Source: Halomicrobium urmianum
GTDB taxonomy: Archaea > Halobacteriota > Halobacteria > Halobacteriales > Haloarculaceae
Reading direction: 5' to 3'
NCBI RefSeq assembly: GCF_020217425.1
Contig: NZ_CP084090.1
Coordinates: 2,542,001-2,606,000, forward strand
Length of the DNA stretch: 64,000 nt
Shown: in pieces, positions 2,795 to 57,751 of the stretch
Numbering within the stretch: the first letter of the stretch is position 1
Layout: each line of letters begins with the position of its first letter
Notes under the pieces: generated by a model
Told to the model about the DNA's origin: nothing
What the model saw: only the letters and a program-made list of their open reading frames with translations
The model's database searches: none
Translations under genes and position numbers: made by a program

Positions 2795-2847
2795 CGCAGG
2801 GACGCGGTCGACGACCGGACTTCCGGGAGCATCGTGGCGCGGGCTAC

Positions 2848-2902
2848 AGTAGAAATTGAAACTATTCACACATCGAGTGTGTCAGTGCGTTCAATTTCTA
2901 CT
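2848..2902 (+). repeat. Palindromic element, copy 1 (short form)
   Basis: Imperfect inverted repeat with termini AGTAGAAATTGAA and TTCAATTTCTACT. It matches copies at 48241-48319 (same orientation) and 57641-57718 (inverted), but lacks the 24-base GC-rich core hairpin found between the two TCGAG motifs of the long form, as expected from a deletion between short direct repeats. It overlaps the 3' end of the small membrane-protein gene and provides its stop codon. Confidence 0.75.
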
Positions 2903-3136
2903 ATAGTCGTCCATCGCTCGCTTCGTGCAGTACCAGTAGCTCCCGCCGAAAAAGGCCAGCCCGCCGCCGACGAGGACGATGTCGATGACCAGCAGCGGGA
3001 ACGACTCGTCGCCGGGGCCGACGTACAGCGCGGAGAGGCCCAGGAGGAGGCCGCAGACGATCAGGAGACCGATAGCCATCTTCATCCGCTCCCGATTCGC
3101 ACAGAGCAGGTCCAGCAGCCACGACGACGTCGACAT
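2891..3136 (-). CDS. Small haloarchaeal membrane protein
   Basis: An 81-residue protein with two hydrophobic helices, around residues 22-40 (AIGLLIVCGLLLGLSALYV) and 48-66 (LLVIDIVLVGGGLAFFGGSY), and charged ends. I do not recognise a family. The ATG at 3136 is preferred over those at 3160/3163 because a T-rich TATA-like element (complement of 3162-3168) sits about 28 bases upstream. The last codons (for YSRN) and the TGA stop come from the palindromic element at 2848-2902, so the present C-terminus was probably created by that insertion. It is 100 bases downstream of the GH67 gene but appears to have its own promoter. Confidence 0.6.
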   Translation of the reverse strand: MSTSSWLLDLLCANRERMKMAIGLLIVCGLLLGLSALYVGPGDESFPLLVIDIVLVGGGLAFFGGSYWYCTKRAMDDYSRN

Positions 3137-42833: not shown

Positions 42834-43922
42834 ATGACCGGCCCGCCCCGCGACGAGTTCGTCGACCACGTTCGGCGGCTCGACCGCGGGGCGCTGACCG
42901 AACTGGTCGCCGACGTCTACGACGCGCGCGACTGGCGGGTGGACGACACCGGCGACGGACGCCTTCTCGTTCGGGCCGCGCAGGGCGACCGCGTCGAACG
43001 GCTGACGATCCGCGTCGCGGAGTCGCTCCCTGCAGACCCCGGGGACGCCGACGTGGTCGTCGTGGGCGACGTCCTCGACGGCGAGCGACTGGGCGACGGG
43101 GCGCGCGTGATCGACGCGCCGGCCCTCCACCGGATGGCGCTGTACGCCGTCGACCGCGACCGCCTGTCGGACCTCCTGGCCGATCACTTCGGGCCGGAAG
43201 CGTTCGCCGAGCGGGAGCGACACCCCGGGCGCTGGATGCCTTCGACGCCGCGGATGCCGTCGATGCCGCGGCCGCGCCTGCCGGAGGGGCGCGCAGGCGC
43301 CACGGCGGTCGCACTCGGCGTCGTCGTCCTCGGCCTGCTCGGCCTGGCGCTGGCGTCTTCGGTCGGCCACGACAGATCGGCGGACGTCGGAATCGGGGTC
43401 GAACAGACGGTCACCCCCGCGCCCGTAGCGGAGACGGTCACCGAGACGACGCCGTCGGTCGCGAGCCCGTGTCCGCCGCCGCCGACGGACGTTCACCCGG
43501 CGGTCCTTCGCCCCGCACCGGTCGACGCGGCCGTCAGCACCGGCCTCGAGGGGTGGTCGATCGAGGGGGCCATCAACGTGAGCTACTTCCACGGGCCGAA
43601 CGAACTCGAGGTCTCCGCCCGGCCGGAGCACCGCCACAAGGCGACCTATCGGAGCCCTCGGGAGACGGCGATCGGACTGTTTCTGGACCGATGGCTGGAC
43701 CGGGCGACGGCGACCGACGCCGGGCCCGCGCTGGCGGAGGCCTACGGAACCGCGCTCGTCTGGGGACGGTACACCGTCACCGCGACTGTCTACGAACGAT
43801 CCGCGTCCGAATCGACTGTCAGCGCCGAGGCGTACACGCTCTTCTCGCACGTCATCAACCCCGACGCTGGCCAGCTCGGCGTCCAGTGCGTGCACCACGC
43901 CGCCGTCGAGTCCGGAGACTGA
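42834..43922 (+). CDS. Membrane-anchored protein with N-terminal restriction-endonuclease-like domain
   Basis: A 362-residue protein of unknown function. Residues 1-120 resemble a restriction-endonuclease-like fold (LTELVADVYDARDWRV, then RLLVRAAQGDRVERL, a pattern seen in Mrr-type domains), without certain catalytic residues. One transmembrane helix is at about 154-173 (AVALGVVVLGLLGLALASSV). The rest is extracytoplasmic, with a Thr/Pro-rich linker and a beta-rich C-terminal domain. It begins 3 bases after the tartrate-dehydrogenase-like gene, so it is translationally coupled, but I see no functional link. Confidence 0.6.
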   Translation: MTGPPRDEFVDHVRRLDRGALTELVADVYDARDWRVDDTGDGRLLVRAAQGDRVERLTIRVAESLPADPGDADVVVVGDVLDGERLGDGARVIDAPALHRMALYAVDRDRLSDLLADHFGPEAFAERERHPGRWMPSTPRMPSMPRPRLPEGRAGATAVALGVVVLGLLGLALASSVGHDRSADVGIGVEQTVTPAPVAETVTETTPSVASPCPPPPTDVHPAVLRPAPVDAAVSTGLEGWSIEGAINVSYFHGPNELEVSARPEHRHKATYRSPRETAIGLFLDRWLDRATATDAGPALAEAYGTALVWGRYTVTATVYERSASESTVSAEAYTLFSHVINPDAGQLGVQCVHHAAVESGD

Positions 43923-47950: not shown

Positions 47951-48240
47951 CCGGACCGCCGATGAGAATCCCTGCATCGGCCTCGCGCGAGTACGCGGAC
48001 GCACGCGCGGCCCGGAGTATCGCGAGGCACTCTGCCGATCCGGACCCCTGAGAGACACCCTACATAACAACTGTACGGCCGTTAGTATCTCCGGAGACGG
48101 CCACGTCGTTCACGCATCGTGTACGGTACGGACGGGAGAACGCCGCCAGAGCGGTGCCAATCGCGGCGGAGTCGTCGCGGCTGAACGCGCGGACGGGACA
48201 GCGAGACTCCCCCCGCAGTGTTACTAACGTACCTAATTAC

Positions 48241-48319
48241 AGTAGAAATTGAAACTATTTACACATCGAGGGGCACCCCGGGTGCCCCTTCGAGTGTGTC
48301 AGTGCGTTCAGTTTCTACT
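48241..48319 (+). repeat. Palindromic element, copy 2 (long form)
   Basis: A 79-base inverted-repeat element with termini AGTAGAAATTGAA and TTCAGTTTCTACT and a strong GC core hairpin (GGGGCACCCC/GGGTGCCCC, 48270-48289). It sits in the 519-base spacer between the ThuA-like gene and an IclR gene, in the same orientation as copy 1 and inverted to copy 3. Nothing else is recognised in 47951-48469. There is no transposase in it, so it is a MITE-like or structured regulatory repeat. Confidence 0.8.
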
Positions 48320-48469
48320 ACAGGTCCAGTGGCGACCGCGAACATAACCAATTAGAGACAGTTGCCATCGCACAGTCGGACGTGACGACGCCGGCTATAC
48401 GGGCGACGGGTCCGAAGCGGCGGTCTCGACCGGGCGTTCACGGATGGAAAACGGCCCGGGATCGACCAG

Positions 48470-57493: not shown

Positions 57494-57640
57494 ACGCCCG
57501 TAACCGAGGGGGGGGCGTGCTGATACTGGTTCGCCGCTCTGGATTCTGTCCGGTATTCGAACGCTCAGACCCGGAACGATACCGACGCGAGCAGCGACCG
57601 TTCGAGATCGGCGCGGCGGAGCGTCGCTGGTCGCAGTTAT

Positions 57641-57718
57641 AGTAGAAATTGAACGCACTGACACACTCGAGGGGCACCCCGGTGCCCCTCGATGTGCAAA
57701 TGGGTTCAATTCCTGCGT
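57641..57718 (-). repeat. Palindromic element, copy 3 (long form, inverted)
   Basis: A 78-base element that aligns with copy 2 when reverse-complemented, including the GGGGCACC/GGTGCCCC core hairpin (57670-57690). One arm starts AGTAGAAATTGAACGCACTG, as in the right arms of copies 1 and 2; the other arm has drifted (TTCAATTCCTGCGT). It sits between the 3' ends of the ATPase gene and the GH4 gene. Confidence 0.8.
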
Positions 57719-57751
57719 AACGGAAGAAACGAAACCGCGACTGGTCCGTCG

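Follow-up and report, generated by a model that had tools for sequence, protein, structure and literature searches.

An 80-bp hairpin element that duplicates TA on insertion, probably a non-autonomous transposon, dispersed through haloarchaeal genomes

Three palindromic repeats in a 64,000-nt stretch of the Halomicrobium urmianum chromosome (NZ_CP084090.1, positions 2,542,001 to 2,606,000; hereafter "the window") belong to a family of mobile 80-bp elements that duplicate the dinucleotide TA on insertion. The element is probably a non-autonomous, TA-specific DNA transposon, similar to a MITE or "small mobile repeat", and an enzyme encoded elsewhere, most likely IS630/Tc1-mariner-like, would move it in trans. 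Such an enzyme would recognize both element ends, cut the element out and join it into a TA, in the manner of IS630/Tc1-mariner DDE transposases. Settled copies would have no required function and would decay neutrally, surviving mainly where they are harmless, near the 3' ends of genes. Support for this explanation comes from filled and empty sites at seven loci, an excess of CTAG targets, copy number, covariation and avoidance of genes.

The initial annotation described the three window copies as dispersed and palindromic, and they proved genuine (Table 1): a 13-base end, with up to two mismatches, occurs five times in the window against 0.05 expected. The reported positions were correct, while the widths were too small by about 4 bases on each side. 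The loss of the core from copy 1 was also borne out, with 23 nt missing in a way that is consistent with deletion between two TCGAG repeats. This shortening is not unique, since two 65-bp copies and one 76-bp copy elsewhere have other breakpoints, and the two 65-bp copies share one that differs from that of copy 1. Across these four shortened copies, the inner hairpin has been lost, wholly or partly, more than once. The described asymmetry of the left and right arms is conserved throughout the whole family. In the window, each copy is flanked by a pair of convergent genes; a short gene may separate copy 1 from the GH67-like gene.

Table 1. Coordinates of the window copies and of other loci discussed in the text. 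Lengths of window copies include the target bases; names of neighboring genes come from reading translations, not from a database.
Feature	Location	Strand	Form	Neighbors
Copy 1, short form	window 2844..2906	+	63 bp; C-TA-[57 bp, 2847-2903]-TA-G; lacks the 23-nt inner hairpin	HEAT-repeat-like and GH67-like genes
Copy 2, full form	window 48237..48323	+	87 bp; T-TA-[81 bp, 48240-48320]-CA-G; right TA mutated to CA	ThuA-like and IclR-like genes
Copy 3, inverted, most diverged	window 57637..57720	-	84 bp; + strand reads T-TA-[78 bp, 57640-57717]-TA-A	ABC ATPase and GH4-like genes
Long forms (G084)	L190:1249-1393; L191:1006-1150			
Long form (G083)	L192:1136-1280			
Long form (Natronococcus sp. CG52 plasmid)	L210:3001-3127			
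Head-to-tail pair	G063:C36:43218-43303 and 43307-43392			
Copy enclosing an insertion sequence	L032 (G000:C1:1088000-1090300)			
Copy interrupted by another repeat	L126 (G001:C1:1853648-1855148)			
Copy flanked by another repeat	L002 (G000:C1 near 1830604)			
Copy beside short direct repeats	L009 (G000:C1 near 2076115)			
Sub-threshold Rfam match	L045:921-1107	-		

The family extends far beyond the three places first seen. A search of the whole genome with the end pattern, allowing one mismatch, gave 91 and 81 matches, and the reversed control gave none. Scoring with a covariance model of the family (R1) produced 150 hits when both strands are counted, and reading these gave at least 103 distinct copies, spread over all three large replicons (contigs of 3.36 Mb, 418 kb and 400 kb). 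In the model one pair was mis-set (17-69 instead of 17-70), with little consequence. Exactly 86 columns are spanned by 77 of the copies, with a mean divergence of 8.6% from the consensus, which in this genome has the form C-TA-[80 bp]-TA-G and the sequence CTATAGTAGAAATTGAAACTATTTACACATCGAGGGGCACCCCGGGTGCCCCTCGAGTGTGTCAGTGCGTTCAATTTCTACTATAG. The family thus has the features of a MITE in being 80 bp long, non-coding, an inverted repeat over its full length, dispersed, and present in at least 103 copies.

Direct evidence for mobility came from a comparison of filled and empty sites. The flanks of 20 copies in Halomicrobium katesii (G001) were searched in two congeners, whose names, H. mukohataei (G003) and Halomicrobium sp. 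LC1Hm (G002), were inferred. Clean empty sites were found at seven loci, in eight comparisons, and all read N-TA-N, with CTAG at four of the loci and one case each of CTAA, CTAT and GTAA. Another four pairs (L116, L121, L122 and L123) had diverged too far to be read. When filled, the sites have the structure N-TA-[80 bp]-TA-N and keep the outer bases of the empty site; the difference therefore amounts to 80 bp plus a duplicated TA. Gain in the filled species and precise loss in the empty one are indistinguishable in these pairs, and the structure of the site is the same either way. The element is therefore mobile and duplicates TA on insertion. The initial annotation had seen no clear target duplication; the element ends themselves read TAGTA...TACTA, which makes the duplication invisible from a single filled site. 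In H. urmianum, CTAG accounts for 39 of the 69 insertion sites at which both TAs are intact, against 2.8% of TA contexts at the same loci.

An alternative explanation for these sites is that a serine or tyrosine site-specific recombinase moves the element through a circular 82-bp form, with a 2-bp crossover at TA. This would produce the same N-TA-[80]-TA-N structure and the same net change at the site, and it would fit with the failure to find a DDE partner with common ends (DDE_3 sought in seven carriers; ends compared among those listed or read in 19 genomes). However, the targets are scattered TA sites with no defined attachment site, and we consider this route unlikely.

Other repeats were encountered around the copies. 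Flanks of H. urmianum copies were also tried as probes for empty sites in congeners, and the attempt was dropped since the flanks were too diverged and were swamped by another repeat. A dispersed repeat (GGAACACCAGAAAGCCC...) lies in the right flank of L002 and recurs widely in G005 and G006; two congeners without the hairpin element have dozens of copies of it. The copy at L126 is interrupted by a different dispersed repeat (TTCAGATAAGCCGCTGCATTTT...CACCGAAAGCCC), whereas its filled ortholog in G003 (L144) lacks this interruption. Two unrelated loci, L011 and L013, both have ATACGGACTGTT as the left flank before the copy, perhaps a remnant of another repeat used as a target. At L009, short direct repeats TCGAAATGAGGACACCGGTATCGAAATGA occur twice beside the copy.

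Duplication of TA is the documented signature of IS630/Tc1-mariner enzymes, and the element matches this group in its TA target, its TA duplication and its preference for CTAG. TA duplication has been shown in vitro for ISY100 (PMC2170065), and a CTAG preference of IS630 is named in the title of a paper cited there. Of seven carriers tested for a mobilizing enzyme of this type, five, including H. urmianum, lack the IS630-type DDE_3 domain; G002 and G077, which are among those five, hold well-conserved copies. An intact full-length IS630 element in H. katesii was rejected as a partner because its ends differ. Neither G356 nor the ends listed for 18 other genomes yielded an IS-length element with matching ends, and across the ends listed or read in these 19 genomes none is common to the element and an autonomous transposon. 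These negative results count against the proposed transposon and, because the tests of shared ends and of transposase presence failed, the element has not been classed as an IS630-derived MITE.

The initial annotation allowed that the repeat might be the end of a known insertion sequence, and its copies could likewise be internal deletion products of one. Some ends are solitary in the genome, and the copy at L032 encloses an insert of insertion-sequence size, as such an origin would predict. Isolated ends were considered as autonomous elements in G000, G011, G064, G076, G081-G084, G086, G090 and G356, and those that were read are 80-bp copies, long-loop variants or remnants, the isolated ends being degenerate or truncated copies of the 80-bp element. 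The insert at L032 carries an IS5/ISH-like transposase gene and is a separate insertion sequence that has ends of its own and has apparently duplicated an 8-bp target, AACTAGTT, within the copy; it too was rejected as a partner. No insertion sequence with the same ends was found among the ends listed or read in 19 genomes, and derivation of the element from one is very improbable.

Almost the whole element forms one imperfect hairpin, consisting of an outer stem, an asymmetric internal loop, a bulged base and an inner stem. Among 25 representatives of the family, the structure pairs 95% of cells, and 80 cells are changed on both sides, compared with 24 in shuffles and 8-19 in slid controls. 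Within the H. urmianum copies, compensated double changes at positions 5-17 of the outer arm number 11, where shuffles give 2.3 (maximum 8 of 2000), although the shuffle does not give a strict probability since the copies have common ancestry. The same positions have one uncompensated double change and 87 one-sided changes. We infer that the pattern reflects constraint on the moving lineage, or correction of the palindrome at replication, followed by neutral decay of settled copies. The internal loop and bulged base are asymmetric in all versions. G-U pairs had hinted that one strand might fold preferentially, but the two strands proved to fold about equally well, and the idea was dropped.

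Changes of paired stem letters without a fixed terminal sequence are unusual for the end of a DDE transposon, and this also counts against the proposed transposon. A different possibility, which we regard as considerably less probable, is that the element is a self-complementary DNA parasite with no autonomous relative, and that a host-encoded or single-copy enzyme reads the fold rather than fixed ends and inserts the element at TA. Recognition of the fold would explain both the paired stem changes and the retention of an asymmetric loop across a whole archaeal order.

The fold also invites comparison with REP/REPIN elements, whose movement depends on a Y1 (HUH) transposase and passes through a folded DNA single strand. 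The imperfect hairpin, the conserved asymmetry and the GTAG/GTAA next to the foot of the stem are consistent with such a mechanism. Nevertheless, no Y1 domain was found in 6 of 25 element-rich genomes, so Y1 was rejected as a universal driver, yet one is present in 12 of 16 element-free genomes. The element duplicates TA, which Y1 transposition, as characterized for IS200/IS605, is not known to do. Clustering by orientation is likewise absent along the H. urmianum chromosome. A replichore orientation bias was looked for and is absent from this chromosome and from H. mukohataei; an apparent orientation clustering in a partial list from H. katesii (z = -2.9) is without support elsewhere. The REP/REPIN mechanism is thus disfavored and must be judged highly improbable.

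The genomic context of the copies was assessed with a simple gene finder based on codon usage in H. urmianum. Insertions lie inside genes in 5% of cases, compared with 41% of TA sites, and between convergent genes in 25%, compared with 7% of TA sites. Gene 3' ends lie at a median distance of 49 bp from the insertions, and 5' ends at a median of 180 bp. The excess between convergent genes, together with the covariation of the stems, could suggest that the element primarily serves the host, as a structured RNA, a transcription terminator or a protein-binding site. While these data are consistent with a host function, a bias toward 3' ends is also what harmless insertion predicts, and close species differ in whether a given site is filled, the empty alleles being clean. 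In addition, settled copies often carry one-sided stem changes, and Rfam gave no match in the window and none overlapping the element in six loci at E up to 1. Given this freedom of inserted copies to change on one side and the lack of an Rfam match, the element is not explained primarily by a host RNA function; a host role of any of these kinds is very unlikely as the main explanation, and single copies may have been co-opted. Of the identities first proposed, a mobile element such as a MITE is supported by the TA-duplicating site pairs, about 100 copies and order-wide spread, and a structured RNA is not favored as the primary one. Separately, about 190 bases from a short-form copy at L045, Rfam gave a sub-threshold match to sot0042, a sense overlapping transcript RNA, which scored 60.6 bits where the cut-off is 88.

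Far from being confined to three unconserved places, the element recurs across the order, in 144 of 392 sampled Halobacteriales genomes and 39 of 95 genera (E up to 1e-4), with differing stems and the same fold. In a search of about 85,000 prokaryote species genomes, a conserved 21-base pattern turned up in Halobacteria alone, and it occurs in 55 haloarchaeal plasmid records; the phage and viral collections searched gave no copy of the element. Lineage versions are symmetric between the arms, with GAAAT/ATTTC in H. urmianum, GCTCT/AGAGC in Natrinema, GCAAC/GTTGC in G356 and GGTCT/AGACC in G008, and the commonest version in Halomicrobium and Haloarcula retains two mismatches. In G356, both 17-base ends are exact in 17 copies and eight copies have the same model score, which argues for recent activity there. 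The family has recently been active in several species. Long forms of about 127-145 bp carry extra material in the terminal loop, and in two Haloarcula-like genomes about 54 extra bases at the same position form two more hairpins. Two copies of equal score lie head to tail in G063, 3 bases apart, which could be an insertion at the edge of another copy or a duplication.

MITEs derived from IS630/Tc1-mariner elements, such as Correia/NEMIS and RUP, share their ends with an autonomous IS630-type element. The haloarchaeal element resembles them in being short and gene-free, with inverted repeats, TA duplication, a CTAG-like target and high copy number; it differs in that no autonomous partner was found and in that the entire 80 bp pairs, not the ends alone. 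By description rather than sequence comparison, the nearest published category appears to be the small mobile repeats of Haloquadratum walsbyi, SMR-A and SMR-B, which are about 80-110 bp long with prominent inverted repeats and have no transposase and no related transposon (PMC3119063). Their mobility was proven by differences between strains, and their mobilization was called enigmatic; they are reported to lack a target duplication, and SMR-A inserts into palindromes of other elements (PMC3119063). The two share a haloarchaeal host, an inverted-repeat structure of this size and, for the 80-bp element in the 19 genomes whose listed or read ends were compared, the lack of a related transposon. 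The 80-bp element differs in its TA duplication, its preference for CTAG and its position between genes, although in the SMRs, too, a duplicated TA may have escaped notice. REP/REPIN elements with RAYT transposases (PMC3116915, PMC3733652) are likewise many-copy intergenic imperfect hairpins; unlike them, the element duplicates TA and is not associated with Y1 transposases. Haloarchaeal PATEs are also gene-free, palindromic and present in many copies, but they have neither the terminal inverted repeats nor the target duplication of the 80-bp element (PMC3119063). The element appears under no name in the openly licensed papers or the RNA library searched, although an earlier description may exist, and its sequence had a single, unrelated match in the text of openly licensed papers.

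With a presence in more than one-third of sampled genomes and up to about 100 copies in each, the element appears to be among the commonest small mobile repeats of haloarchaea. With the exact 80-bp unit and the target rule (TA, mostly CTAG) supplied by the filled and empty sites, co-occurrence can be used to look for the missing enzyme, and candidates can be tested in harmless laboratory archaea. The paired stem changes, in an element with no partner that shares its ends, raise the question of whether that enzyme reads a folded strand rather than linear ends.
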